From: Tachypleus tridentatus
Lineage: Eukaryota; Arthropoda; Merostomata; Xiphosura; Limulidae
Assembly (NCBI RefSeq): GCF_004210375.1
Contig: NC_134834.1
Location: forward strand, 93,066,170-93,130,169
DNA length: 64,000 nucleotides
Direction of reading: 5' to 3'
Part shown: positions 1,411-62,763 of the stretch, in pieces
How positions within the stretch are numbered: the stretch's first letter is position 1
Layout of the letters: every line of letters starts with the position of its first letter
Translations under genes and position numbers: made by a program
The notes under the pieces: model-generated
Database searches by the model: none
What the model was told of the DNA's origin: nothing
What the model saw: only the letters and a program-made list of their open reading frames with translations

Positions 1411-2376
1411 AATAAAAACAGGTTATCACAGATGTCTTTATTTATATGAACTTTTAAATCTGTCTTCTATTCAAGTTGAACGCAAGTTGGAGGAGAGATC
1501 AAATACATTGCTTGCACATTGACTTGAACTTAGTGGTTTTTACTTTTGTGTTACACTTTTAAAGTGAACTGAGAAACTGAGGTACAAACGTGAAATTTAT
1601 TTAAATACTATTTCATCCTGTAAGAATATTCATTTTATTAGTAACCCAGGAACTACACCCACTAAACTAACGTACGGCTTGTTTATGCAGGAAAATATTG
1701 TTTCTACAATAATTGAATCCCAATAGTAAGGAAAATCGTATTTCGTAGGTCTTTCCAGTGTTTTGTTTGTATAAACATAGTTTAAAACTTTATCTTTTTA
1801 CCATTCTACGACATACATTAATATTAGGCTTCTTGGATTGTAAAACAAAATCAAAAAGAAAGAAATCAAACCTTTGGATACTCATAGTATTTAAGTTTGA
1901 TCTAAAGCCACTTTTACCAGTTTCGTCAGAAATAAAAGCTTGTAATTGACTATATTTATTTCTGGTGAATAAATTCATGAACGTACAGAGTTTTAGTGTA
2001 GCTTACTCATTGTACATACCAGTAGTTACTTGGTATTAGAAAGTTAAACCTAAGTTATTTAAGTAAAAAACACTTCTATGTGTGTTACGTTTGACATTTC
2101 GAATTCTCCCTTGACTATGATATGTAATAAAGTTTTGAAACATAATGAATAGTAATTCAGTTTTCTCTGCTCAAAATTTAGTCTTAAAAACAGAAAAAAA
2201 AAACACTTTGGATATTTATTAAGTTATTTATGTTTCTTATTTCTTTATTAAGAAGAAATTCAGTTTTTACCTTTAGTTTTCTAAAGGTGCTACGAAGGTC
2301 GATATACTCCGTGTGCGTCAATTTTCTGATAGGAGGAGCTTGCTGACTCAGTGAGTTAACTCCGCCAGCTAAACAT

Positions 2377-3720
2377 ATGGTCAGTCGAGACATACAAATT
2401 ACTGCCGAGATGACTTCAACTGAAAGCATCAGATGTGCTAATGAAGAAGCTAACGAGAAAAGACGTGTAGAGAACCAAATTATTCAAGGAATGAGACCTC
2501 TCTTTCTTACTTTAAGAATATTTGGTATTTACGAAACCAGACATCGAACCATGAAACGGTGGTTACCGCTTTGTTTTTACTTCGTTTACCTCCTTCATTC
2601 GATGCTGGGTTGGATTCCCTACCATCTAGCCAATGGTACAATAAGTACATTTGTTCAGAAAACTGGGTTCACACTACGCATCTTATTCTCATTTCTTTGC
2701 ATTGCAATATACAAGCATCGAAGAGTGGAAATTGACTCGCTGCTGAACGACATGAACCAGTTCTACAGTATTGTACCAATACGTGAGTTAAGGAAGCTGA
2801 GATGCCATTGTACGATATTGACTACCATGGGCTGGATGTTTTTGGTAATTAGGGCGAGTATATGTATGTACTATAGTGTACACTTTGATATAGAAGGTTA
2901 TGCTCCTGTTTTCCTATACAACATAAATATCACAGAAGAATCAGTTCTTTCGACTGTCGTTAGAGTGATAATTTTTGTCGACTGGTTCTTATATAACATT
3001 TGTTTAGTACCAATGTCGTTTATCGCCTATCACTTTGTATCCTTGTGTTTGTTTTTCAGACTAAAAATTGAATCGTTCAGTGAGTGTCTAAAAACAAACG
3101 TCGAAACAACGACTGACGGTCCACACCATGGCCAAAATATCGTAAAAGAAGACATTGAACAAGGTGAGTTAAGTATATGTCATGATACAAAGAAGATACC
3201 ACATGATATTAACCATCAGCAAGGAAACATCAGTAATGACCTGTTAAAAACGTGCATCTTACATTCTAAGTTATGTGTTCTAGGCAGGATGTTTGACAAC
3301 ACTTTTACAATAATCGTGTTTCTCTGTTATGCTGCTATTATCACAGATACGTTGATATACATTCCAATTTTTGTGTCCTGTTTTCACGAAGTGGACTATC
3401 TTGGCGGTGTCGCTCAACCCTTCACAGTTCTGAACGATATATTACTATTTTTCATTATGTCCGTTTCAGCCTTCAGAGTATCAGAGAAGGCTAATGACCA
3501 ATCTGTTTTGGCATTAATGGCTTCGTGTCAACTGACAGTTAATGATATTCGTGCTATTCAACTCAGTAGATCACTCACAATGGCATGCACAAATCTGGAC
3601 ATAAAACTGACAGGTTGGAGATGCTTTATGATCTCACGTGGATTTGTTCTTACGGTTGTAAGTTCTGTTTTTACATTCGGAGTGATTATTTACCAGTTTA
3701 TGTCACAACAAAATGACTGA
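2377..3720 (+). CDS. Gustatory receptor-like 7-TM protein (single exon, 447 aa)
   Basis: Uninterrupted ATG-to-TGA frame with the layout of arthropod gustatory receptors, ligand-gated channels of chemosensory membranes. Hydrophobic segments lie at about residues 62-80, 96-113, 147-166, 191-227, 309-333, 350-366 and 421-442. The family signature TYhhhhhQF appears as TF-GVIIY-QF at 433-441, preceded by LTGWRCFMISRGFVLT, typical before the last helix. An N-terminal inside topology is expected. The loop between helices 4 and 5 is unusually long (about 228-300) and very polar, with acidic and His-rich stretches. A second ATG 11 codons in (2410) could also start translation. There are no introns. 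A polyadenylation signal AATAAA follows at 3863. The second receptor of the window (23317-24582) shares the layout but is only distantly similar. Ligand unknown. Confidence 0.85.
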   Translation: MVSRDIQITAEMTSTESIRCANEEANEKRRVENQIIQGMRPLFLTLRIFGIYETRHRTMKRWLPLCFYFVYLLHSMLGWIPYHLANGTISTFVQKTGFTLRILFSFLCIAIYKHRRVEIDSLLNDMNQFYSIVPIRELRKLRCHCTILTTMGWMFLVIRASICMYYSVHFDIEGYAPVFLYNINITEESVLSTVVRVIIFVDWFLYNICLVPMSFIAYHFVSLCLFFRLKIESFSECLKTNVETTTDGPHHGQNIVKEDIEQGELSICHDTKKIPHDINHQQGNISNDLLKTCILHSKLCVLGRMFDNTFTIIVFLCYAAIITDTLIYIPIFVSCFHEVDYLGGVAQPFTVLNDILLFFIMSVSAFRVSEKANDQSVLALMASCQLTVNDIRAIQLSRSLTMACTNLDIKLTGWRCFMISRGFVLTVVSSVFTFGVIIYQFMSQQND

Positions 3721-12640: not shown

Positions 12641-12912
12641 GTTTGTTTTTGAATTTCGTGCAAAGCTACCCTAGGGCTATCTGCACTAGCAGTCCCTAAT
12701 TTAGTAGTGTAAGACTAGAGGGAAGGCAACTAGTCATCACCACCCACCGCCAACTCTTGGGCTACTCTTTTACCAACGAATAGTGGGATTGACCGTCACA
12801 TTATAACGTCCCCACGGCTGAAAGGGCGAGCGTGTTTGGCGTGACCGGGATGCGAACCCGCGACCCGCAGATTACGAGTCGCACGCCTTAACACGCTTGG
12901 CCATGCGGGGCC
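12641..12912 (-). repeat. Thr-tRNA-type SINE, full length
   Basis: Complete minus-strand copy: CCCCGCATGGCCAAGCGTG head, CGTAATC anticodon loop, GGGTTCGCATCCC B box, body and AAACAAAC tail. Close to the consensus, so a fairly young insertion. Confidence 0.95.
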
Positions 12913-13231
12913 TCTCATACATATTAATCCGGGTGAATTAACAGATTATTTATAATTGAATGAAAGAAAAACAAATGGAAATGAATAAATATGAAAATGT
13001 GAGATATGCTATGCGGATATTTTCATAACATTAAGAATGTGTGGGGAAACAACAGTGAAAGATATATAGATATGTGAATGTTAACTGTGGAATTGTTTGG
13101 TGTAATTAATAAAGCTTCTCTGATTTTTTCTTCTGTTGACGTCACTTTCAGGTTTTAGTTCTGTTCAGAAAGTGTGTTTGTTTTTGTTTATGTATAATGA
13201 ACTTATGAAGAGGACTTGGTTTCTTTTAACC

Positions 13232-13509
13232 GGTCCGGCATGGCCAAGCATTTTAAGGCGTGCGACTCGTAATCCGAGGGTCGCGGTTTCGCATCCCCGT
13301 CGCGCCAAACATGATCGCCCTTTCAGCCGTGGGGGCGTTATAATGTGACGGTCAATCCCACTATTCGTTGGTAAAAGAGTAGCCCAAGAGTTGGCGGTGG
13401 GTGGTGATGACTAGTTGCCTTCCCTCTAGTCTTACACTGCAAAATTAGGGACGGCTAGCACAGATAGCCCTCGAGTAGCTTTGTGCGAAATTCAAAAACA
13501 AACAAACAA
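13232..13509 (+). repeat. Thr-tRNA-type SINE, full length
   Basis: A complete copy with GGTCCGGCATGGCCAAGC head, CTCGTAA loop and full body, ending AAAAACAAACAAAC. It lies at the 3' end of the Penelope-like element, which reads on the other strand. Confidence 0.95.
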
Positions 13510-18312: not shown

Positions 18313-19471
18313 TATACTCTTCAAAAAAAGAAACGCAAAAGGCAAAATATGAGACAAATTGTTAACAAGTTTATTCCGGGTAGTTCTGTATGACATGTGT
18401 GAAACTTTGCACATTCACTGCTGAACATCTAAAGTCTGCAAAGGCGAAGTCCACGCTCACTAGTTGAAGTTTAACGTCACTCAACGTCAATAATGAGTAT
18501 GCCCCGTGAACATCAATAACTGCTTGGCATCTCCTGCCCATGGAAGCGATAAGATGACGAATCGCGTCCTGTAGAATAGCTGTCCACTCAGCCTGCAAAG
18601 CTGCTGCAAGCTGAGGTAGAGTCTGCGGTTGAGGTTGTCGCCGTCGCAGACGTCGGTCCAACTCGTCCCAAAAATGTTCGATGGGGTTTAAATCTGGTGA
18701 TCTGGAGGGCCAGAGAAGAACGTTGATGTTGTAGTGTCTCAAGAAGACAGTGGTGAGTCGGGCTGTGTGAGGACGGGCTTTGTCATGTTGAAAACGTCGT
18801 TGACGTTCACCATGATGGGTTGCACATGGGGCCTAAGAATCTCGTCGACGTATCGTTGAGCCGTAAGATTCCCTCGAATGTGCAAAAGGTCTGTTGAGGC
18901 AGTAGATGTCGGTGTGGTGGTCCTATCCCGAAGGTGACGTAACCGAATGTAGCGATCTTGTGCGGGCGTGGTCACACGAGGTCTGCCAGATCGTGGACGG
19001 TCACGAGTTGATCCATGTTGTTGGTGATGATTCCATAGTCTTGTGATGGTGCTTGGGTGGACATTCACAGCTCTGGCAACATCTGATCGAGATTCGCCTG
19101 CTTCCAATTCAACCAATGGCGATGTTGCGTTGTGCTTCAGTCAGTCTTGGCGTAACTGTATTGCGTGTCGGTGGCTTAACACTGAGCTATGGAAACCGAG
19201 AACCCGTCACTTTTATAGGGATTTTGCACATGTTGCACTTGCAAAACATGCAGATCTCTCAAACAAATTTATTGGTCACGCATGCGTTTTGGCGAAAAAT
19301 CCGATGTTTTCCTCCGTTTTCAAAGTGCACGACTTTTATTGTCATTTTGGTCTGACAATCAGTGCCTTAACACGTGTAACATCACATACTCTGAGCTTGT
19401 AACGTTATTACATATATTTCTCTTTAAAATAACAAAAATATCCTTTTGCGTTTCTTGTTTTGAAGAGTATA
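18313..19471 (-). mobile_element. Internally deleted Tc1/mariner-type element
   Basis: TA duplications (18313-18314 and 19470-19471) flank a 1155-bp element. Both ends start TACTCTTCAAAA and match for about 28 bp with one mismatch, ending in GAAACGCAAAAGG. The minus-strand transposase starts near 19116 with a helix-turn-helix region (SDVARAVNVHPSTITRLWNH, GRPRVTTPAQDRYIRLRHLR). It then jumps to LLHIRGNLTAQRYVDEILRP. The segment that should carry the first catalytic Asp is missing; from typical family length about 120 residues are lost. A one-base frameshift near 18790 precedes KARPHTARLTTVFL, and the frame continues as RSPDLNPIEHFWDELDRRLR with the third catalytic acid (Glu). The element cannot make active transposase, but intact ends could still be mobilised by a relative. 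Confidence 0.9.
18371..19116 (-). pseudogene. Tc1-type transposase remnant
   Basis: Coding remnant of the element at 18313-19471. The N-terminal frame spans 19116-18739 and the C-terminal frame 18742-18371; the latter begins with TTG, not a start codon, and is simply the continuation after the frameshift. The DNA-binding domain and the DxE C-terminal half are recognisable; the central RNase H strand with the first Asp is deleted. Confidence 0.85.
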
Positions 19472-19748: not shown

Positions 19749-22147
19749 TACAATAGTACCTCGGTTCTAGAACAACTCCCTTCTCGAACAATTCGGTTTT
19801 CGAACATATTGTTTGAGAAAAAAATGTCTCGGTTGTCGAACATAAACTCGGTTCTCGAACTAAGCTGTCGTGACCCAAACCCCCGAAATAACCTGACTGA
19901 TGACCCGAACGACCCTTCGACCATTTTTGGCCCACGCCAAGCCTGCCCAAAACATTTCACCTGTTGCTCAATCCACACTCCCGCTAAAATCTGCTGTGAA
20001 CGTTCTCGCTTTTCTGTTGGTTTTTTTCTAAATATTCTGGTTAAATAAGCCACCATGGGGTCAAAGAAAGATAATGAAAGCAGCAAACCAAAAAGAAAAG
20101 TTGTTAGAGTCACAATAGAGGTGAAAAAAGATCTCATAGCGAAGTATGAGAGTGGTGTTCGTGTGTCTGACCTTGTTACACAGTTTGGTATGGTGAAGTC
20201 TACAGTCTGCACCAAACTGAAAAATAAAGAGTTCATCAAAGGAGCTGATGTTGCAAAAGGAGTGACAGTGCTTACGAAACAAAGATCACAAACAATGGAA
20301 GAGGTAGAAAAACTGTTGTTGATTTGGGTAAACGAAAAACAGTTAGCTTGTAATAGCATTTCTGAGACTATCATTTGTGAGAAAGCAAAGCATTTGCATG
20401 CTGACCTCTTGAAAAACACCCCTGGAACAAGTGCTGATACAAGTGATGCCTTTAAGGCTAGTAGGGAGTGGTTTAAAAAATTTAGGAAGAGAAGTGGCAT
20501 ACATAGTGTGGTGAGACATGGGGAGGGTGCCAGTTCTGAGAAAGACGCTGCTGATAAATTTGTTAGGGAATTTAAGGACTATGTAGAAGCTGAGGGTTTT
20601 ATTCCCCAACAAGTGTTCAACTGTGATGAGACAGGCCTCTTTTGGAAGAAAATGCCAAAGAGAACTTACATCATCAAGGAGAAGTCAATGCTAGGACACA
20701 AGCCAATGAAGGACAGGCTAACTCTATTGTTATGTACTGATGCAAGTGGGGACATAAAACTTAAGCCTTTGTTTGCGTACCATTCTGAGAACCCGAGGGT
20801 TTTAAGAAAAATAATGTCCTGAAAAGTAAACTAAATGTCATGTGAAGGGCTAATAGTAAAGCATGGGTAACCAGGCAAATTTTTTATGGAGTGGGTCCAT
20901 GAAGTGTTTGCCCCAAGTGTAAAGAATTACCTTACGGAAAAACAGTTGCCACTCAAGGCCCTTCTTGTGATGGACAATGCACCTGCTCACCCACCAGGCT
21001 TAGAGAACGGTTTGGCGGAGGAGTACAGTTTCATTACGGTGAAGTTCTTGCCACCTAACATGACTCCTCTCATTCAGCCCATGGACCAGCAGGTTATATC
21101 GAACTTTAAGAAACTCTACACCAAAGCACTGTTTCAAAGGTGCTTTGAAGTGACTTCTGACACAGAGTTAACCCTCAGAAAGTTCTGGAAAAATCACTTT
21201 AATATCCTCCATTGCTTGAGGATCATAGACAAAGCCTGGAGGGAAGTGTCTTTGAGGACCATGAACTCAGCCTGGAAGAAATTGTGGCCAGACTCAGTAG
21301 CAGATCCAGACTTTGAAGGCTTTGAGGCTGAGCCTGTTATCGAGAATATTGTCTCACTAGGCAAGTGTATGGGCTTAAACGTGAGTGGTGATGATGTGGA
21401 GAAGTTGGTAAAAGACCACAACACTGAGCTCACCACGGAAGAACTCCAAGACCTTCAGAAGGAGCAGCAACAGAAGGCAACTGAGGAAGTGTCTTCAGAT
21501 GAGGAGGAGGGAAGGGAGGATGTTCCTAGTTCACTAATCAAGGAAATGTGTGGAAAATGCTAGAGTTACAACGTTTTGTGGAAAAAGTTCACCCTGACAA
21601 AGCTGTAGCAAATCGCAGCATAAACCTTTTCAATGACAATGCCATGTCTCACTTCAGAAACATTTTAAAATGCAGACAGAAACAAACCTCATTAGACAAG
21701 TTTTTAGTGAGAAATAGGTCCAGTGAGTCTTAAGCAGGTTGTAGCAGTACAAAGAGACAGAAAAGAGAAAGAACCCCAGAAGGAAAGTTACCTGACGTTT
21801 TTATGGAAGGTGACTCCCCTTCCAAACAATAACAACCCTCCTACTCTACATGTTCACCACCTTTCATTTAGCCATCAGTTCTCCTCAGCACAGGTAAAGT
21901 GCAGTTAAATTTTCATTTATTGTTTTTTTATTGTGTTTATAGTTTTTTTGGTTGACTTTATGCATGTGAGTATTATTATACAGGTATAAATAAGCAATAT
22001 TTTTACTTAAAATGCTTCACAATGCGTAATTTTTGGATGTCTGTAACGGATTAATTTAAGTTACAGTATTTCTTACAGGAAAAATTGATTCGGTTTTCGA
22101 ACAGCCTTCTGGAACGGATTAAGTTCGAGAACCGAGGTACCACTGTA
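19749..22147 (+). mobile_element. Complete Tigger (pogo-type) element with TA duplication
   Basis: TA lies at 19749-19750 and 22146-22147. The left end begins CAATAGTACCTCGGTTCT and the right end, complemented, begins CAGTGGTACCTCGGTTCT. This is the CAGTGGTACCTCGG terminus of Tigger elements, with one or two changes on the left. The inverted similarity continues imperfectly for about 60 bp and includes a TTCGAAAACCGAAT-type block. Inside lies one transposase gene (20055 to about 21733) with several lesions. The length, 2395 bp, is that of an autonomous Tigger, so this copy is full length but inactive. Confidence 0.92.
20055..21733 (+). pseudogene. Tigger/TIGD1-like transposase, frameshifted
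   Basis: The start ATG (20055) sits in an ideal Kozak context, GCCACCATGG. Piece 1 (20055-20822) carries the CENP-B-like N-terminal helix-turn-helix (VSDLVTQFGMVKSTVCTKLK), the second HTH_Tnp_Tc5-type domain, and the first catalytic Asp in FNCDETGLFWKKMP. A frameshift near 20800 and a TGA follow. Piece 2 (20886-21563) carries the second Asp in LLVMDNAPAHP and the third in PLIQPMDQQVISNFKK, then an acidic linker. A third frame (21548-21733) supplies the C-terminus HPDKAVANRSINLFNDNAMS. All three catalytic Asp positions survive, so decay is recent. Overall resemblance to vertebrate TIGD1/Tigger1 proteins is high by recall. Confidence 0.9.
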
Positions 22148-22589: not shown

Positions 22590-23010
22590 TGTATTGGAGA
22601 AAGAAGTAGAAAAATGGAAACCAAATCCAAATAACACAAAAAGTCACCTTCACACGTTTTCTAACACTGCAAATCAAATAAACACAACATAACCATAGAA
22701 AACACTCAATTAATAAATAAAGAAACAAATATAAACAAAAACTCAAAATTAAAGAAGCTTTAGTTATACAACAACTCGCCCAAAATAAACCAATACAAAG
22801 AAACACCTTTATACCTTTATTAATAAATATATCCAACATCTAAGCACGCCCTCTACCGCCTTCAAACATGTGGTCAGTTAATGGTCAGTTACCTCTTTCT
22901 TTCTTTGTGAGCCTGACGATGACCGAAGAAGGTCGAAACGTTGTTCACTCCTCTGCATAGTGTTTTCTCTACCCATACCAGCCGTTTTCACATATATAAT
23001 TTTCTATACA
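22590..23010 (+). mobile_element. Penelope-like element, 3' fragment
   Basis: With frame changes, 22700-22830 reads KETNINKNSKLKKA, then LVIQQLAQNKPIQRNTFIPL. This resembles the C-terminal end of the GIY-YIG endonuclease of Penelope-like elements (KRKIAEALYIQ-type). The 3' non-coding unit follows, with CCTGACGATGACCGAAGAAG, GTCGAAACGTTGTTC and a hammerhead-like fold (22907-22948). A related unit is inverted at 47465-47680. Family assignment is inference from the end of the ORF and the tail motif. Confidence 0.55.
22907..22948 (+). ncRNA. Hammerhead-ribozyme-like motif in Penelope tail
   Basis: Stem I GTGAGC (22907-22912) can pair with GTTCAC (22943-22948). Between them come CTGACGA (CUGANGA core), one extra T, stem II GACC/GGTC around GAAGAA, then GAA, a minimal ACGT stem III and a T at the expected cleavage position. 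Two copies at 47.5-47.7 kb keep stem I with compensating changes. Hammerheads are known in the pseudo-LTRs of Penelope-like elements. The extra T and the nearly absent stem III make activity uncertain. Confidence 0.55.
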
Positions 23011-23316: not shown

Positions 23317-24582
23317 TTAAGGTTGGGGCATAAGCTGACAAATGACAACGATATATGTTAAAACACAACTTGCCACTGATAAAACAAAACTTCTACTGAT
23401 TGTGAAGAATTGCCAACCTGTCAAGTTAAAAAATGGCGTAGCTTGGATTACGTTGTTCAGTAAGGATCCAATCATCTGCTGTTCTTCAACGGTGGATACA
23501 GAATTGAACACAGAGAGCTTTGTATTAAGGGAAATCTTTAAGTCATCGAAGCTGTCAGAAATACTGGCTGCTGTAAAGGACATCATTATGAATAGAAAAA
23601 CATTGTTTGCAATAACAATCATGAGCGTGCTATAGTTCAACGAATTAGACTTGTCTGTAGTCCCTAACAGGCTTGGTATGTAAACTAGTGTGTCCATTAT
23701 AATAACAACATATATCAAGAATATGACACACGAGAATACATCATCAAACTCTGTGATTGCTTCCAAGTAATTTCTCAGATGTTTTTGCAAATTCTGAATG
23801 AAGTTGGTGGATCTGGGGCCTTCTCTTGGGTCTAAGTGGTCTCGAATATAGGTGTTGTGATGATGAATCTTATTACGAATGTATAAACAAACTCCCACGT
23901 AAAATGCTGCTAAAAAGACAACGGGACTGCCAGCAATGCTAAACAGCAGCCAATCAGTCATTATAATAACCTTTCCAAGCGTTTCAGACACCTTTATTCC
24001 ATAAAAGTACTCGTCCATATAAATGTGTGTGCTGGTTTGGTGTAAAGATATAGCGTTGTAAACAAGAAAACTCAAAAGGTAGATGCATTCGACTGCAACA
24101 ACCAGCATAACTTGTACTCTTAGCTTTCTTACACTATTGTTTGGTAGTTTCTCACCCATGTTGTCGATATTGTTCATCACTTCGTCAAGCGAATGGCGTT
24201 TCCACAGACACACACAGACGCAAACCAGAATGATGAAAAGTCTTGTTAGGGAAGTGCTGGTAGATAAAGAAAGAAAGAAGGAAGTTTTTTGAAGATCTCT
24301 GACTAAAATATTAGCAAATGAATGGATGAAATAGAAGAGGTAAAAGATAACGGGTGACCAAACTCTGAGTGTCTTCCTTCTGTAATCTTTAACATCGTTT
24401 TTCAATGGCATATCTGGTGTTTGTAAGATAGGAACCCCTAGTAATCGAAGAAAGAACAGGACAGTCTTTAATATCCTTTTCAGTCTGTTTTTATCGTTTG
24501 TTTTACGGAAATTCCGTACTGACAGTTTCTGACTGACTGTGAATAAAGATATTCTTGAGTTAAGTCTATCTTTTGCTGACAT
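23317..24582 (-). CDS. Gustatory receptor-like 7-TM protein (single exon, 421 aa)
   Basis: Uninterrupted minus-strand frame. It is open four codons further upstream from a GTG, but the first ATG at 24582 (MSAKDRLNSR) is the plausible start: a TATA box lies about 75 bases upstream. Hydrophobic segments lie at about residues 72-92, 112-127, 156-180, 203-235, 282-304, 317-340 and 398-418. The C-terminus has NLTGWQFFTISRSFVLSVAS and the TYhhhhhQ(F/L) signature as TY-IVVIC-QL (409-417); the final Phe is Leu. The helix 4-5 loop is short and His-rich, unlike the long loop of the receptor at 2377. No introns. Expected to be a chemosensory cation channel; ligand unknown. The opposite orientation and about 20-kb distance suggest a dispersed cluster rather than a recent tandem duplicate. 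Confidence 0.87.
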   Translation of the reverse strand: MSAKDRLNSRISLFTVSQKLSVRNFRKTNDKNRLKRILKTVLFFLRLLGVPILQTPDMPLKNDVKDYRRKTLRVWSPVIFYLFYFIHSFANILVRDLQKTSFFLSLSTSTSLTRLFIILVCVCVCLWKRHSLDEVMNNIDNMGEKLPNNSVRKLRVQVMLVVAVECIYLLSFLVYNAISLHQTSTHIYMDEYFYGIKVSETLGKVIIMTDWLLFSIAGSPVVFLAAFYVGVCLYIRNKIHHHNTYIRDHLDPREGPRSTNFIQNLQKHLRNYLEAITEFDDVFSCVIFLIYVVIIMDTLVYIPSLLGTTDKSNSLNYSTLMIVIANNVFLFIMMSFTAASISDSFDDLKISLNTKLSVFNSVSTVEEQQMIGSLLNNVIQATPFFNLTGWQFFTISRSFVLSVASCVLTYIVVICQLMPQP

Positions 24583-24655
24583 CTTCAAAGTCACGTGCTT
24601 GCTACGAAACGGCCTGTCTGTTTGACAACAGAGTATTGTGAAAACTTAAGCTCAC

Positions 24656-24699: not shown

Positions 24700-26313
24700 A
24701 ATTTTCATAGGACCATTCGTGACGTTTTTCAAAACCCACGCCTAATCGAATAGTCATTTCTAAACCACGCCTCCTCTGGAGTTCAATAGAATCGTCATTC
24801 AAAGTTGCCTGATCAACATTTACTGAATTGTTTATTGCACAATACACTAAACTGAAGGCTGTTCACTTAACATAGAACAGTCAATACGTTTGTATTTTAC
24901 TCGAAATAACTTTCAAGTGAAACTTATTAAGTCAGACATATTTTATTGTATACTTTCAAGCATGGAACCACAGAGAGCTTCCACTTGACAAAATCATACA
25001 ACCTATGTTATAGCTGCAATCATCTCTACTATTTCCACTTAACATTCTTCTATGACCCATAGTCTTCAAATGAATTCAACCAGTAACTGAATGTGCATAT
25101 AATGTCATTTTTTAACATCAGAACACGACTACTTGGTTATTTAGAATTCTGAATTTGGCATCACCACGCGCTTTTTTTGTTTCCAGTGGCAACCAACGAC
25201 AGCAATAATTTTCATCATTTTTTCTACTTAGTTGGTCATATGAAAATTTGTTTTACGCGTTATTATTGACTAGATCTGTTCGAAGACATAAAAACGTATG
25301 TGAGAAGTAGCACGTGCAATATAAGTAACAATTTGTTTTACTAAACACGTGATAATATTTTTGTTTTATTAAACACGTGATAATATTATCTTTCTGAGGA
25401 CAGCACAAGTTTTCTTACTTATATTTTTAGATACTTATCGAGGTTCACATGAATTTTCCTATTGATGTTTTCATTTAGTTCGTTCGAACGTTCTTCACTT
25501 TTGATAAACTATAAAACTCAATAACTTTCCATAATGTTGAAAATCATTTCAATCGACCTGGTAACAAAACATAAAATGTTTTCATTGTTATTCTTGTGTT
25601 CCCATTTTTCTACGTTCTTCACACTACGTTCTTATACCATTTGCTGGTACACACACATTTGTATTCGTAGTATACACATGCATTTATATTGGTAGTATAC
25701 ACATACGTTAAAATTGATAGTAAGTATACACACACACGTTTATATTGATAGTAAGTATACACACACGTTTATATTGGTAGTATACACATACGTTAAAATT
25801 GATAGTAAGTATACACACACGTTTATATTGATAGTAAGTTTACACACAGGTTTATATTGATAGTATATACATACATTTATATTGATAGTAAGTATACTCA
25901 CACGTTTATGTTGGAATTTATCATAAAACCAATGGTTGAAGGTAACATTTTTTAATGTGTCGCTCTTAGTATTTTCTTAAAATTAACTCATAGGTCATCT
26001 AATAGTGAACTTACTTGGCTTAAGAACTCCATTAAGTTTATATTTAGGCTTAAATTCTAAATACGTAAACGATAGCTACAAAGACGTACCAACAAGTTGT
26101 GTTATAAACACTTGGGCTACAATAACTCCAAAACTACGCACGTAAAGTTATCTATAAATATACATTAACTGAAAAGAAAACAATACAAACAGATCAGACT
26201 AATTTTTAATATGTAAATTAATTAATTAATGATGTATTAGATAAATTGAGATACGTTATTGTAGCTATTACGATATTAATAGGTCATACAAACTTTATGT
26301 TAAAATTCCGAGC
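24700..26313. other. Gene-free stretch with a minisatellite
   Basis: No gene seen. A 29-bp minisatellite occupies 25648-25915. A TTAA-rich run lies at about 26217-26230. The rest is AT-rich and without recognisable repeats. Confidence 0.5.
25648..25915. repeat. About 29-bp minisatellite, roughly 9 copies
   Basis: The unit is close to GTATACACACACGTTTATAT followed by TGATAGTAA. Variants carry ACATACGTTAAAATTGATAG or lack the second half. It is AC-rich, suggesting growth from an AC microsatellite. Confidence 0.85.
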
Positions 26314-26582
26314 GGCCCGGCATGGCCAAGCATGTTAAGGCGTACGACTCGTAATCTGAGGGTCGCGGGTTCGCATCCCGGTCGCATCAAACATGCTCGC
26401 CCTCCCAGCCGTGGTGGCGTTATAATGTACGCTCAATCCCACATATGGTAAAAGAGTAGCCCAAGAGTCGGCGGTGGGTGGTGATGACTAGCTGCCTTCC
26501 CCCTAGTCTTACACTGTTAAATTAGGGACGGCTAGTACAGACAGCCCACGTGTGGCTTTGCGCGAAATTAAAAACAAACAAA
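26314..26582 (+). repeat. Thr-tRNA-type SINE, full length
   Basis: A consensus-like copy: GGCCCGGCATGGCCAAGC, CTCGTAA loop, GGGTTCGCATCCC B box, full body. Flanks AAAATTCCG (left) and AAAATTTCG (right) are a probable 9-bp target duplication. Confidence 0.93.
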
Positions 26583-35883: not shown

Positions 35884-36162
35884 GGCCCGGCACGGCCAAA
35901 CGCGTTAAGGCGTGCGACTCATAATCTGAGGGTCACGGGTTCGCATCTCCGTCGCGCCAAACATGCTCGCCCTTTCAGCCGTGGGGGCGTTATAACGTGA
36001 CGGTCAATCCCACTATTCGTTGGTAAAAGAGTAGCCCAAGAGTTGGCGGTGGGTGGTGATGACTAGCTACCTTCCCTCTAGTCTTACACTGCTAAATTAT
36101 GGACGGCTAGCACAGATAGCCCTCGAGTAGCTTTGTGCGAAATTCAAAAAACAACAACAACA
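35884..36162 (+). repeat. Thr-tRNA-type SINE with 12-bp target duplication
   Basis: A complete, consensus-like copy. ACACAAGTATCC flanks it on both sides (left just before 35883, right just after 36160), so the insertion is well defined and young. Confidence 0.95.
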
Positions 36163-40114: not shown

Positions 40115-40298
40115 GGCCCCGAATGGCCAAGGTGGGTTAAGGCGTTTGACTCCTAATCTGAGGGTCTCGGGTTCTAATCTCCATCGCACCAAACATGCTC
40201 GCACTTTCAGCTGTGGGGGCGTTATAATGTGACGTTCAATCCCATTATTCGTTGGTAAAAGAGTAGCCCAAGAGTTTGTGGTGGGTGGAGATGACTAT
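40115..40298 (+). repeat. Thr-tRNA-type SINE, 3' truncated
   Basis: Head GGCCCCGAATGGCCAAGGTG, GGGTTCTAATCTCC B-box-like region and body as far as GGTGGAGATGACTA. The last third is missing. Confidence 0.88.
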
Positions 40299-41532: not shown

Positions 41533-41807
41533 CGTATGTTTGTTTTTGAATTTCGCGCAAAGCAACTCGAGGGCTATCTGCGCTAGCCGTCCCTAATTTT
41601 GTAGTGTAAGACTAGAGGGAAGGCAGCTAGTCATCACCACCCACCGCCAACGTTTGGGCTACTATTTTACCAATGAATAGTGGGATTGACCGTCACAATA
41701 ACGCCCCCACGGTTGGTAGGGCGACCATGTGTGGTGCGACTGGGATTCGAACCCGCCATCCTCGGATTACAAGTCGAACGCCTTAACACACTTGGCCATG
41801 CCGGGCC
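41533..41807 (-). repeat. Thr-tRNA-type SINE inside RPLP1 exon 1
   Basis: A complete minus-strand copy. The 11-bp target duplication ACTAACGACGA lies at 41522-41532 and 41808-41818 and is part of the coding sequence, splitting codon 6. It destroys the reading frame of the P1 copy. Confidence 0.95.
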
Positions 41808-54170: not shown

Positions 54171-54888
54171 GATGATTCAAAACATTTACCCTAAGGCTTG
54201 AAAGTCGCTGTCCACCACTTCATCTCGAGCGTATGCTGCTGCACTTTGTTCCACTACTACAGTGAGAGTGTAGACAGATCTCTTTGTGCCTCCAAAAGAA
54301 TCGTTCTCAAATCATATGAAAAGTCTTTTGACCTCCATGGTTAAAAAAGTTGATGAATCAACATCAACACCCATCTCTGTCCCTAACATTCGTTCCAGCA
54401 AACCCCAAGATATACTTCCTTTGGTTCTGCGTACAGGTATTTCCTCGGATACATCTCCCACCCGAAAATGCAAAAAATGATCATTCGCTTACGTTCTCAG
54501 TCGCTGGAATCCTCTTTCAACGTCAAATACCTGCCCAATCAACCCATGCCAGGATCCATGAAAGTCGACAGACCTCCCTTGAATAAAGAAAAAGACGTGG
54601 TCGAAAACAGAAGGGGTCTCCACTCAAGATGGCCATTTTTTATTTGTGTAGGCGAGTTGGGTGGAGAATTCTTGTCATTTCTGTACAAAGGAAACTGCCA
54701 ATACAATTATCTTTGTACAGAAATGACAGGCTGTGTGATGGACGAGTGCATGGATAGGTGGCACTGTTGATTGATCAGCATGTGCCCACCCTCTCTTTGC
54801 CTTTCAATACTCCCTTGGAAGCCGTAGCTGTGCGTGTTTTCTTTGGTCGTATCATCACTGTTTTTCTTTTTACCTATCTCCTGAAGTC

Positions 54889-55320
54889 TTGGACCAATCA
54901 GATCTTGATGCTCTTGTTCAACAGTTGCCATCTCTCTTTTTAATCTTGAGAGACTTTAATGGACATAATACCCTCTGGGGAGATACTGATATTGATAGCA
55001 GGGGTTGCTTCATAGAGCATATGCTCTCAGATCACAACCTTTCCATTTTCAATACTGGTTCTTATACTTATTTTCATGCACCTAGTCACCCCTTTACTGC
55101 TACTAATCTGTCAATTTGCTCCCTTTCACTATTCTCCTACTTTTCATGGAGGGTTGACAATAACCCACGAGGCAGTAATCATTTTCCTATAATTCTGAGA
55201 CTCGCCATGGTCGATACCGCCCGACCCGCGTGCTTGGGTGGAAGCTGGATCACGCAAACTGGCCCTCTTTTACTGCTTTTGCAGATCTTAATCCTGTCAT
55301 CATCTGTAAGACATCAATAG
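54889..55320 (+). pseudogene. LINE endonuclease domain (APE-type)
   Basis: The frame reads LILRDFNGHNTLWGDTDIDS, then GCFIEHMLSDHNLSIFNTGS and TYFHAPSHPFTATNLSI, followed by NPRGSNHFPIIL. DFN-H-WG and the target-site region are those of APE-type endonucleases. The catalytic SDH box is SNH here, so the Asp is lost. Confidence 0.8.
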
Positions 55321-55859
55321 ATGACTGCATGGCAGCTGTGACTGACTGTATCACAAAGCAGCTGCTCAATGTATTCCGAAAACATCGACACATTTTCCAT
55401 AATATCCTTGTCTGTGGTGGAATCCTGCCTACTACATGGCACTGAAGGCTCAAAAACAGGCCTGATATACTTTTCGTAGGTATATCTCACACTCTCGAAT
55501 TGCATCACTTTCCAGCAGGCCCATGCACATGTTAGACGGGTAAGACATCAAAGCCAGAAGAAATATTGTATTAAGTTCAAAACCAGCATATCTTCTACTA
55601 CCAGTTTCAAAGTAATATGGGACAAGATTCGAAAGGTCAATCGGCAATATAATTTTGTGCCCATCTCGATCTTGCTCTCTGATGGCTAAGAAGTGGCTGA
55701 TATTCAGAGCATCGCCAACACTCTAGCTGAAAGCTTTTACTGGGTATTTAGCACTTCTGATTCATCCTCCACATTCTTAGTCATCAAGACTAGGGCAGAG
55801 CGATTACCTCTTTCCTTTTGAGCTGATTGTCTTCATACTTGTGGAACTCAAATTGGCCC

Positions 55860-56720
55860 TTCATTGGTTTGGCAATACATCAGTTGGGCCTGATGATATA
55901 CACTATGAAAAGTTGTGCCATCTGTCTCTTGCTGTTCTTCTAATTGGTTTTAACTGGATCTGGCAGGAGAATGTTTCTCCTGATGCCTAGCGCCAGGCTA
56001 TTGTCCTACCTTTCCCTAAGCCTAGGAAGGATCCCAAGATTCCCTCAAACTACCATCCAATTGCTTTGACGAGTTGTCTCTGTAAGACCTTAGAGAGAAT
56101 GGATAATGCTCATTTTATTTGGTTCCTCGAATCAAACAACCTCCTCTCACCCACCAAGTGTGGGTTCCGACTACAGTGCTCCACCATGGACCACCTGATT
56201 TGACTTAACGTCAATCAGAGAAGCCTTTCTCAAACGACAACATCTTGTATCAATATTATTTAACTTTGAGAAGGCTTATGATATTACATGGATGTATGGC
56301 CTTTTGCGAGACCTCCATTTATATGGGTTACGTGGTCATTCACCCATTTTTATTAAAACTTTTAATGGATAGGCGACTCCAAGTTCGTGTGGCTTCAACA
56401 CTTTCCTGTTCTTTTCTACAGGAACTTGGAGCCCCTCAGGGCTGTATTTTGAGTGTCACACTTTTCAGTATAAAGATTAATGCCATCACTGAACAATTCT
56501 CTCTTTCTGCTGCAAACGGGCTCAATGTCGACGACTTTCACATCTCGTGCCAGTCATCAAACATGAGGTATATTGAGCGGCAGCTACAGACTCTCCTCAA
56601 TTATTTACTGAAGTGGACCACGGCAAACGGTTTTCTCTCTCTCTTTAAAACCATTTGTATGCACTTTTGCCGCCAACAAGGTATTCTCCCTTGTCCTGAA
56701 CTTCGTATCAGTTAAGTTGT
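55860..56720 (+). pseudogene. LINE reverse transcriptase domain
   Basis: Pieces in order: VGPDDIHYEKLCHLSLAVLL, AIVLPFPKPRKDPKIPSNYH, PIALTSCLCKTLERM, then FEKAYDITWMYGLLRDLHLY, LGAPQGCILSVTLFSIKINA and GLNVDDFHISCQSSN. The catalytic box is NVDD in place of Y/F-x-DD, so both Asp of motif C remain. Multiple stops and frame changes. Confidence 0.85.
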
Positions 56721-57359
56721 GCTACCTGTAGTCCATGAGACAAAGTTCTTTGACTGTAAGCTGACTTTTATGCCACACATCAAACAGCTATGAGTCAAAT
56801 GTACAGGAGCATTGAACATCCTCCATGTCCTTTTTTCCACCATTGGGGAAGCGGATCAATGTTCTATGCTGAAGATATATTGTGCTCTTTTTCACTCAAA
56901 CTAAACCTTGATCACTGGTCTGTGGCTCTCCTAGGATCTTGGCCTTGAACATGCTGGACCCCAATCATCATCAGAGACTTCGGTTTTGCACTTCTCCAGT
57001 CTGGAGCTTATATACAATCTCATTAACCTCCTTTACAGACCACAGTTTGTAACTGTTTTTACTGTATGCTTCGAAACTTCAATTCTTACCACAGTATCCC
57101 ACCTGGGGTTGTATTTTTCTTCCTCAGTGGGCCACGCTTTTCATAACGGATGATCTTCCATTGCTCCTTTTGACTTTTGTATCCAAGTGCAGTTGAATGA
57201 ATTGTGTCTGTCTTTGGATAACAGTGCTGTATCCACTTGTCAGCCCATTCCATTATGGCTTATAACAATCCCCAAATGTGACTTTTCTTTAAGTCATCTG
57301 AGAAAAGCAGATACTCCCGATTGGAAATACTGTCTGTTATTTGCTGAACATCTTTCGAA

Positions 57360-57700
57360 CCACACTTCCATTCATATTCATACAGATGGTTGGAAGTCAA
57401 GTGACTCTGCGGGCTCTGTTTTGGTTTGTTGTGATTTGGGGGCTGTACACAGAATCTCCTTTACAGTTTCTGTGTTCACTGCCGAATTATACGCCATTTT
57501 TTCTCTGGATTACTTAAAAGTTAAGCAGTACTTAAATTGCACTATTTATACTGACTCGCTTAGTTCTCTACTGGCCATGGAATTGATTAACGTTAGTTCT
57601 CACCCTATTCTCTCCGATATTCAAACCCAACTGGCCCATTTTTCTTTTACACCTACTTTTACCCAGTTTTCTGGATACCAGGCCATGTTGGTATTCTCGA
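57360..57700 (+). pseudogene. LINE RNase H domain
   Basis: Reads HIHTDGWKSSDSAGSVLVCC, then FTAELYAIFSLDYLKVKQYL, IYTDSLSSLLAMELIN. The D-E-D catalytic pattern (HTDG, AELYA, YTDS) is intact. Part of the open frame 57187-57927. Confidence 0.85.
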
Positions 57701-57991
57701 GAACGGGTTCTTTGACACCACAGCTAAATCTGTCTGATCTGGCACTATCATTGTTGTGCCTGTTTCATACATGGACTGTAATCCTGCATTCAAAACTCAG
57801 TACTTGGCCAGTTGGCAGTCGACTTGGAGTGAGCAACGTTAAAACAAGCTTTCCATATAAATACCCTTTATTGGATTTTAGCCGTCTTGCTTCTGTAATG
57901 ATCGATAAAGGAAGTTGTCTTAACTAACTACGCATTGTTCACAGATTTCTAACTCGTCGTTTTCTTTTATCTGGGACTGATGCATCATGTG

Positions 57992-60255
57992 TAACACTGC
58001 ACGAGAATTGTTTTGCTGATTGTGACAGGTACCTAGTAGGTATGCACAAATATAGTTTTGGTTTTGCTTCATCACGTAGGAACTCTGAGAAATAGAGTTA
58101 ACTGTTTACCGGCAATAACGTATTTCATTGCATTTATGTTTCTAATACGCTATTAAGTTCAACATAATTAAAAGCGTTTTGCTCCTGATTTTCGTTAGTA
58201 TTCTCTGTCCGGTGCAACACGTTGCAGTGTCCAACAGTAATCAGTAAGCATTGACGGATTCCAGTTGCCCTGATATCGTTGTTCCATTGTAGCAATGTCC
58301 TGGTGAAGCTTTTCACCATGTTCGTCACTGACAGCACCGATATTTGCGGGGAGGAAGTCCAAATGTGAGTGGAGGAAATGAATCTTGAGTGATATGTTGC
58401 ACTTCATTGTTTTGTATGCTTTGAGAAGTTTGTCTACCAGCTGAATGTAATGTGGGACTCTGTAATTGCCAAGAAAATTGTCAACAACGTCTTTGAAGGC
58501 TTTCCAGGCAATCTTTTCCGGCCCAACTAACAGTTTTTCGAACCGCTTGTCACTCATAACATGTTTGATCTGAGGACCAACAAATATGCCCTCTTTGATC
58601 TTGGCCTCAGTTATACTTGGGAACATCTGTCTTGAATAATGAAATCCTTCGCCTTCTTTGTTCAATGCTTTCACGAAATTCTTCATAAGTCCAAATTTTA
58701 TGTGAAGAGGAGGCCCAAAATCTTGCCAGGTCAACAAGCGGTTTATGAGCCACATTTTTCTGTCGTGGAACAAACTTTTTACGGAGTGGCCAGCTCTCTC
58801 TAGAATAATGTGACTTTTGGCACGACTGTCCCATTCACAGACGAAACAACAGTACTTTGTATAGCCGAGCTGCAGTCCCAGTAACTGAGCAACGACTTTT
58901 AGATCTCCACAGATATTCCACTTGTACTTGCTGTACTTTGCTTTAGCAACATTTCATGTTCTCGTAGGTTTATTTCATGTATGCTGCATAGTCAACAGGT
59001 ACTGAAAGGTGAACGTTGTCATTGCGTAACAGAACAGCTTTGAGACTTAACATTGATGAATCAATAAAGAGACGCCACTCTTGCAGGTCATGGTCACAAT
59101 CCAAAGCAGAGAACAATTCTTCGATGTCAACACAGAAACGGAGACTGTCAACATGTGCAAAGAATTTGATTATATCATCTTGGCGGCTTTGAAAAACAGA
59201 AATTTTCGTGCCTGGTGACAGCAAACACCATTCCTGCAGTCTCGAACCCAGCAATTCGGCTTTTGCTATTGACAGATCCAAATCTCTGACCAGATGGTTT
59301 AATTTTGACTGTGTTATGAGATGTGGATTGCCTGAGGATCACGGTTCAAAATCCGGATCAATGTCACTGCCAGTTCCCTGCATAGCAGTTTCTTCATCTG
59401 GTTCGTTTAAGGTCCATTCCTCTGGTGGTTTCGGAATTGGAAGACAATCGTCATGTGGCACGGGTCTCATTGCTGAAGGCAGATTAGGGTATTCAATTGA
59501 CTTCTTGTTTTTTGCAGAGAAACCAAACGCATTAGTTAAGCAGAAGTAACAGTCCGTCACATGGTCTTTCTGTTCTCGCCATATCATCAGGACAGCAAAC
59601 GGCATTGTCTTTCGAGTGCCTCTGAGCCAAGCTCTCAGACAGCACAACAAATGTGAGGCGCCCATTCCTGGTTTTGATCATCAATTTTACAGCCGAAGTA
59701 CAGATGATATGCTTTCTTCACAAGAGCAGTCATTGAGCGTCTCTGATGAACAAGCATATATTCGCCACAAATACTACAGAATGTATTTCGGCTGTTACGA
59801 CATTGACAAGGCATATTGACCGACACGAATCGTCATGTAAAATGTCTATAACATCTAACTTACTTGTTACAGTGCTACTGAGGCAATGCTATATTCTGAA
59901 ACAATAGTACACACTATAAGGTCTACATTAATCCAATGAGCAGCATCTGTATATGCAAGCCACTTTTATAGCCTGCTGAGACAGTGTCAAGCTGGCTCCG
60001 TGCTGCATACTTCCACAGAACTGCTTCCAATCTGGCCTGGACATGCCCAGACTGCACAAAACATTGTTCATAGGTCTCTTACAGAAACAAAAAATTTGGA
60101 CACAAATATATGAAAAAAATATTACAAAACTGAAGATTTCGATGAAACAGTGCCTGATTGGTAAATTTGGATGGTATTTTGGCCATCAGCAGCCAAAACT
60201 ATATAAGGAACGCCCAACAGTGTTCAAGAAGCAAAAACTTTGTTGTGCAGTGTTA
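57992..60255 (-). mobile_element. TIR element (copy B) of an unrecognised transposon family
   Basis: A 2264-bp unit bounded by TAACACTGCAC (57992) and its complement (ending 60255). Termini match at 24 of 31 positions, including a second shared block, TTTTGCT. It sits inside a LINE whose C-terminal region is cut between GTDAS (57985) and a CDIQ-like codon run (60258), giving an internal proof of both ends. A TA dinucleotide lies at each edge; it may be a target duplication (TA, with termini ACACTGCAC) or part of the TIR. The minus strand carries one broken gene, 58195-59814, leaving about 440 bp 5' and 200 bp 3' non-coding. No other gene is inside. Copy A (8354-9521) has the same protein ends. 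Confidence 0.7.
58195..59814 (-). pseudogene. Transposase-like protein of the TIR element, about 540 codons, broken
   Basis: Start ATG 59814 (MPCQCRNSRNTFCSICGE). N-terminal Cys-rich region: CSIC, then DQNQEWAPHICC, then MPFAVLMIWREQKDHVTDCY with FC, a plausible zinc-binding domain. Next an acidic linker, then LLGSRLQEWCLLSPGTKISV, EEWRLFID-type QEWRLFIDSSMLSLKAVLLR, and at about 58950-58820 WNICGDLKVVAQLLGLQLGY, TKYCCFVCEWDSRAKSH. Then FGPPLHIKFGLMKNFVKALN, FPSITEAKIKEGIFVGPQI, NISLKIHFLHSHLDFLPANI, GAVSDEHGEKLHQDIATMEQ, MLTDYCWTLQRVAPDREY and stop TAA. At least four frameshifts or gaps. GDLK, CEWDSR and SDEHGE could be a DDE-type acid set; that is conjecture. I recall multicopy, uncharacterised relatives in arthropods and cnidarians. 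Confidence 0.75.
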
Positions 60256-62482: not shown

Positions 62483-62763
62483 TTTGTTTGTTTGTTTGTT
62501 TGGGAATTTCGCACAAAGCTACACGAGGGCTATCTGTGCTAGCCGTCCCTAATTTAGCAGTGTAAGACTAGAGGGAAGGCAGCTAGTCATCACCACCCAC
62601 CGCCAACTCTTGGGCTACTCTTTTACCAACGAATAGTGGGATTGACCGTCACATTATACACCCCCACGGCTGGGAGGGCGAGCATGTTTAGCGCGACGCG
62701 GGCGCGAACCCGCGACCCTCGGATTACGAGTCGCACGCCTTACGCGCTAGGCCATGCCGGGCC
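62483..62763 (-). repeat. Thr-tRNA-type SINE with 11-bp target duplication
   Basis: Complete minus-strand copy with an (AAAC)n tail. CGTGTTATCGG flanks it at 62472-62482 and 62764-62774. The head carries a CGCGCTAGGCCATGCCGGGC complement. Confidence 0.96.

Follow-up and report, generated by a model that had tools for sequence, protein, structure and literature searches.

The stretch analysed here (the window) comprises 64,000 nucleotides of Tachypleus tridentatus (contig NC_134834.1, positions 93,066,170 to 93,130,169), and carries at 57995–60252, with its gene on the minus strand, a transposon copy that is very probably a dead member of the Chapaev3 group of autonomous cut-and-paste DNA elements, in the CMC clade related to RAG1 and Transib. 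The copy belongs to a family that we term F1, its termini read CACTGCAC...GTGCAGTG, and its ends were placed by comparison with 32 further copies. Immediately outside lie the target triplets TAA at the left edge (57992–57994) and TTA at the right (60253–60255), which differ at one base; relatives carry a TWA target-site duplication (TSD) here. At the 5′ end, upstream of the open reading frame (ORF), an outer block, CACTGCACAACAA, can be read from the window sequence at 60240–60252 (minus strand), and its 13 bases begin both ends in intact relatives. An inner block, GCTTCTTGAA, lies at position 21 of this end, the short one (60223–60232, minus strand), and the 3′ end retains the outer-block remnant CACTGCAC (57995–58002, plus strand), 28 bp having been lost just inside it.

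The original prediction, made from the letters of the window, had proposed inverted ends at 57992–58022 and 60225–60255, and these 31-nt arms are indeed complementary at 24 of 31 positions (77%). The edges, however, have to be moved: the element begins with CACTG, 3 bp further in, and the TAA and TTA are target. The ungapped match itself is real but partly accidental, because the 28-bp deletion near 58003 put a second inner repeat in register. The window alone gives no proof of the ends, and the boundaries were therefore taken from other copies. For instance, TAACACTGCAC with up to two mismatches is not enriched in the window (19 sites compared to 21.1 expected), with exact matches at the two element ends only, and aligning the two ends locally, with gaps allowed, gives a score of 30.5, which is unremarkable against 2000 random window pairs (the 20 best reach at least 34, with a median of 18).

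The transposase gene is broken, as had been claimed, into four minus-strand pieces: a Cys-rich N-terminus (FCSICG...PHICC; 59635–59832), DCYFC with a linker (59339–59677), a piece with the first Asp, in FIDSS (58970–59338), and a piece with the second Asp, the C(2)C, LH and H(4)H motifs and the Glu (58195–58953). The predicted Cys-rich N-terminal domain is present in the form FCxIC...PHxxC..C...DCYFC. Of the three boxes singled out at the time, GDLK and SDEHGE supply putative catalytic residues as judged by eye, but CEWDSR is part of the C(2)C motif and not catalytic. The putative catalytic triad, assigned by eye, would consist of the D of FIDSS (59060–59062), the D of CGDLK (58903–58905) and the first E of SDEHGE (58321–58323), and an alignment by eye finds the C(2)C, LH and H(4)H motifs in the DDE core. 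The C-terminal part of the gene has a median DNA identity of 91% to 49 copies. Compared with the majority base, synonymous and nonsynonymous divergence are equal (dS 0.052, dN 0.054), so the copy has decayed without visible constraint; over the full element it differs by 12 indels (one being the 28-bp loss at the 3′ end noted above) and 5.4% substitutions, and the 32 F1 copies differ from the majority by 3.1–5.8%. With its frameshifts, end deletion and neutral decay, the window copy is dead.

Copies were sought in the 2.17-Gb genome with the C-terminal fragment as the query, scoring 150 matches out of 15396 first-look candidates, and those other than the window share 67–81% protein identity with the query. 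We used 50 loci (30 from this search and 20 more), and both ends could be called in 33 after dropping a duplicate (L004), or in 32 once L036, which duplicates L029, is left out as well; L001, the locus of the window copy, is not among them because of its end deletion. The 32 F1 copies, with a median length of 2305 bp, are the best matches to the query and no random sample. Their 3-bp flanks are identical in 18 of 32 cases compared to 6.7 expected when flanks are paired across copies, and none of 20000 permutations reached 18. When duplication length is considered over the 33 copies, 18 agree at k=3 (6.8 expected), 7 at k=2 (7.9 expected) and 1 at k=4 (0.2 expected). The 2-bp TA duplication hinted at originally is thus at expectation, and a 3-bp TWA was found instead. 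Aligning the flanks of copies, the check proposed with the prediction, gives shared CACTG ends and the TWA duplication, though the latter is exact in just the 18 copies. An A precedes the TSD in 25 of the 32 copies, a T follows it in 27, and both hold in 22, so that A/TWA/T is a strong preference here, whereas PMC4079192 has it as invariable.

An insertion before and after can be seen for one copy, L018, whose paralogous empty site, with a single TTT, lies in the window itself (22659–22790, minus strand): GATTTGCAG becomes GATTT-element-TTTGCAG. A second candidate, L034 compared with L032 (identity about 70%), would fit as well, although that alignment has gaps. One might take the many copies with long open frames for a host gene family instead of a transposon, a reading that we consider very remote given the defined ends, TSDs, empty site, presence on many contigs and short deletion derivatives. 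The first prediction, a DNA transposon bounded by terminal inverted repeats (TIRs) with a transposase, putatively of DDE type, is supported. Genome-wide, the F1 3′ end matches at 1052 sites by pattern search (up to two mismatches; control 0); a DNA search with 74 nt of the 3′ end, by a method that skips common words, returned no match. No miniature inverted-repeat transposable element was among the loci first retrieved, and the short copies came from the genome-wide searches. One locus (L051) and 17 of the 22 F1 end pairs listed are internal-deletion derivatives of 441–467 bp that keep both ends. One contig (C19) carries 8 of the 40 F1 5′-end matches that were scored, some in near-identical groups, a possible segmental duplication. 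The left flank of another insertion (L049) holds three tandem short copies of the TIR start (joined-query positions 1–26, 39–64 and 77–102).

Four more Chapaev3-like families, F2 to F5, were found in the same genome with one initial query and two family queries. F2 is represented by L052, L053 and L055 (97–98% DNA identity), F3 by L054, L060 and L061, F4 by L056 and L057, and F5 by L058 and L059. Several F2 and F3 matches are free of stops, in open frames of 559–629 residues, and the N-terminus of L054 appears frameshifted. Between F3 and F5 the proportion of differing nonsynonymous sites (pN) is 0.169 compared to 0.811 for synonymous sites (pS; silent sites are saturated), which indicates purifying selection between the families. 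An exact 3-bp TSD is seen in 8 of the 10 F2–F5 copies, the exceptions being L059 and L060, with the end search for L058–L061 giving a bonus for equal flanks. The ends of these 10 copies, like those of the 32 F1 copies, read 5′-CAC...GTG-3′.

These properties fit the published hallmarks of Chapaev3, namely CAC..GTG termini, a TWA TSD preceded by A and followed by T, and the C(2)C, LH and H(4)H motifs (PMC4079192). Garfield_BM is 2289 bp long with 556 residues, and most other Chapaev3 have a single exon (PMC4079192); here F1 has the median length given above, the F2 frame has 568 residues from its Met, and ORFs are uninterrupted. The likeness to Garfield_BM, Merrow and Conan (PMC4079192) hence extends over ends, TSD, A/T context, motifs, an element of about 2.3 kb and a protein of about 560 residues. 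Chapaev3 has been grouped with Transib and RAG1, and the N-termini of Chapaev3 and RAG1 are both described as having a Chapa zinc finger (PMC4411706); a wider CMCT assemblage takes in Chapaev, EnSpm, Mirage, Transib and others (PMC12730594). For the protein here, hhalign to the RAG1 N-terminus covers 63 columns at E 0.024 and a probability of 2%. The suggestion that family, ends and target might be undescribed is not upheld, since published Chapaev3 elements agree with this one in TSD, target context, termini, motif content, size and ORF, and with a place in a known group the claim of an unknown family becomes ordinary. The prediction also took similar multicopy uncharacterised proteins to occur in arthropod and cnidarian gene sets, as they may. 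General profile libraries do leave the protein unnamed: Pfam, searched with 21 members at E≤1, has no credible match for the transposase, and neither NCBIfam nor PDB sequence searches gave a credible relative. Pfam does name other transposases within the window. No relatives were found in viral and prokaryote contigs, by searches which lacked a positive control, and these negatives therefore prove little.

Several points weigh against the Chapaev3 placement, which fits by published hallmarks and a weak structural match, the named Chapaev3 proteins being known here by description. The exact TSD is missing in 14 of the 32 F1 copies (one mismatch in 8, two in 4 and three in 2), and the end search for L054–L057 admitted the flanks TAA, TTA, TAT and ATA only, which favours TSD-like flanks. 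The AlphaFold model is weak, with a predicted local distance difference test (pLDDT) of 55.6, a predicted template modelling score (pTM) of 0.45, and values below 50 in the Glu region (residues 495–518); a model from close copies alone has pLDDT 42.3 and pTM 0.22. For the better model Foldseek returned no match at E≤0.001, and its first rows are a sugar kinase, an insertion sequence (IS) transposase, YqgF and a phage nuclease, all with poor scores; RAG1, Transib and ProtoRAG lead only after realigning its 1000 best, on a low-confidence model. Profile alignment by hhalign to the RAG1 core is not significant (E 0.17 and 0.21), with both best alignments falling in the D708/C727/C730 register.

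The lack of a Pfam or NCBIfam model, together with a likeness by description only, would also suit a separate unnamed lineage near Chapaev3 within the CMC/CMCT clade, but we regard this as improbable when the duplication and its A/T context, the termini, the motifs, the length and the ORF all agree with published Chapaev3. A PIF/Harbinger-type element would likewise make a 3-bp TSD, and TWA is the Harbinger TSD sequence. Harbinger 3-bp TSDs are recorded in PMC12730594 and the TSD here is a 3-bp TWA, but the silence of Pfam for all 21 members, when it names other transposases nearby, the presence of the C(2)C, LH and H(4)H motifs, and the RAG1 and Transib rows at the head of the realigned structural comparison leave such an assignment scarcely credible. 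We thus retain Chapaev3, and this fills a gap in annotation, since a protein-coding repeat that is abundant in the genome and lacks a Pfam model fits this group.

The ends of all five families have a further property in common, in that an inner block recurs at both ends and lies 10 bp further in at one of them (positions 20–22 compared to 30–32). The offset was first measured in F1 and then sought in the others. The F1 block GCTTC.TGAA starts at position 21 at the 5′ end and 31 at the 3′ end, the F2 block TGAGGCAAG at 20 and 30, and the F4 block GTACAAG at 22 and 32; the order is reversed for the F3 block GTTGCATT and the F5 block GTTGCAT, both at 31 (5′) and 21 (3′). The long end is thus 3′ in F1, F2 and F4 and 5′ in F3 and F5. 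In F1, 22 copies have both blocks, with an offset of 10 bp in 13, 9 bp in 5 and other values in 4; in 10 of 32 copies a search over 60 bp did not recover the 3′ block TTTTGCTTC, and a shorter 3′ core, TTTTGCT (one mismatch, from position 21 on), lies at 26–29 in 31 of 32. The best ungapped diagonal between the ends is 9 or 10 in all five representatives when the first 13, 14 or 16 bases are skipped, and pairs of ends taken across families give an absolute value of 9–11 in 2 of 18 cases. Shuffled ends reach 9–11 in about 13% of trials per family, and 4 of 4 families without F5 do so in 1 of 1500 shuffles.

A similar asymmetry appears genome-wide. End patterns for F1 to F4 with a free gap of 2–31 bases (control 0 each) were searched, listing the first 100 sites per family, which for F1 are all from one contig. 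Among the matches listed, nearly all of which belong to one of two length classes, F1 (2388 sites) has 58 of 29–31 nt, 40 of 39–41 and 2 longer; F2 (260 sites) has 50 of 28 nt, 35 of 38 and 15 of 37, 39 or 40; F3 (719 sites) has 52 of 28 nt, 46 of 38 and 2 of 39; and F4 (127 sites) has 44 of 27–29 nt, 54 of 37–39 and 2 others. The modal difference between short and long matches listed is 10 bp in each of the four families. Facing pairs among these matches combine one short and one long end in 135 of 136 cases (F1 22/22, F2 42/42, F3 39/39, F4 32/33, the F4 exception containing a 32-nt match), though the copies of a family share descent and the counts are not independent. Short derivatives with one end of each kind are likewise found among the listed pairs, in the 17 of 22 for F1, in 20 of 39 for F3 (579–981 bp) and in 15 of 42 for F2 (1210–1938 bp).

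What the offset means is less certain. There is nearly an even chance that it was inherited from one ancestor and kept by descent without function: all families come from one genome and one superfamily, the members of each family are related by descent and do not count as independent, F3 and F5 have the inner block and its spacing in common (with different intervening sequence), and internal-deletion derivatives retain both ends trivially. In addition, the best diagonal of F3, taken by itself, has p 0.27, and the top diagonal of F5 shifts to -25 when 12 bases are skipped. Against mere descent, the families mostly have blocks and spacers of their own sequence, with outer, spacer and inner sequences unlike among F1, F2, F3/F5 and F4 and yet a modal difference of 10 bp, the long end changes sides between families, and 5 of 5 families at 9–11 occurred in 0 of 1500 shuffles. 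We tentatively propose, at somewhat short of even odds, that Chapaev3 follows a 12/23-like rule, in which every element has a short end and a long end that differ by one helical turn, and unlike pairing is preferred.

An active transposase of about 560–590 residues would have bound bipartite ends made of the outer CACTG block and the inner block, both putative transposase sites, brought these ends together, used a DDE RNase-H core to cut at CAC/GTG, probably by RAG/Transib chemistry, and inserted at A/TWA/T with a 3-bp duplication. Most likely a dimer would touch the outer block where it cuts, with a different domain reaching the inner block, and an asymmetric synapse may accommodate the unlike spacers, in which case the enzyme would prefer to pair a short with a long end.

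Elsewhere the window contains several other mobile and coding sequences. A broken non-LTR (long terminal repeat) retrotransposon ends just left of the F1 element (54775–57927, plus strand), with an endonuclease match at 54775–55320, a weak reverse-transcriptase match under the Pfam cut-off at 56209–56715, and a region that looks RNase H-like by eye at 57154–57927. Two adjoining open frames with HTH_Tnp_Tc5 and DDE_1 (20049–21563, plus strand) form a Tigger/pogo-like transposon with few breaks, and a Tc1-like transposase fragment with DDE_3 lies at 18371–18832 (minus strand). An open frame of 442 residues (23317–24645, minus strand) matches the 7tm_7 chemosensory receptors (Pfam, E 2.7e-17), which would suit an arthropod host, and one of 457 residues (2347–3720, plus strand) is similar to it by eye with no Pfam match. 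A repeat of about 82 nt occurs at 12833–12922, 13231–13313, 26312–26395, 35884–35965, 40115–40197, 41726–41807 and 62683–62763, with 79–88% identity to the flank of L027; it is present in many fetched loci and resembles, by eye, a tRNA-like short interspersed element (SINE).

Since Chapaev3 lies within the RAG1/Transib clade, an asymmetry rule there would bear on the whole clade: unlike signals at the two ends would be ancient in it, or would have been favoured more than once, and RAG, ProtoRAG and a few Transibs would not be special in this respect. How the 12/23 asymmetry of V(D)J recombination arose is debated, and five families with a 10-bp offset offer a distant relative for a direct test; in two of the five, long open frames are numerous among copies that are almost identical. 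The published Chapaev3 account makes no mention of end-spacing asymmetry in its accessible portion (the words subterminal, asymmetric and spacer are absent; PMC4079192), unlike the families here, and we noticed no report of it in the literature searched, which did not include Repbase Reports and does not establish absence in print.

A close comparison is with RAG1/RAG2 and its recombination signal sequences (RSSs). Heptamer and nonamer are spaced by 12 or 23 bp, so that the nonamer starts at 20 or 31, and here too the second block lies about one turn further in, at 20–22 or 30–32. The D-to-C(2)C spacing of 19 is the same, and the predicted fold, at low confidence, is nearest to RAG1. In contrast, the families here have neither nonamer nor exact heptamer sequence, their offset is 10 and not 11, and their profile alignment with RAG1 is not significant. 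Transib and ProtoRAG belong to the same transposase clade as Chapaev3 (PMC4411706), and HzTransib and BbRAGL are among the top, weak, structural rows. Most Transib families have symmetric ends (PMC8289069), and their TSD and end sequences differ from those here; a few have 12/23 spacing (PMC8355894). ProtoRAG has spacers of 27/31 (PMC8289069) and a TSD of 5 bp compared to the 3-bp TWA. A further parallel is the Drosophila P element, whose TIR-to-transposase-site spacing is 9 and 21 bp at its two ends, about one turn apart (PMC7776569). Given RAG, ProtoRAG, a few Transibs and the P element, an asymmetry of one turn is already known in kind, and its occurrence in all five Chapaev3-like families is the new point.
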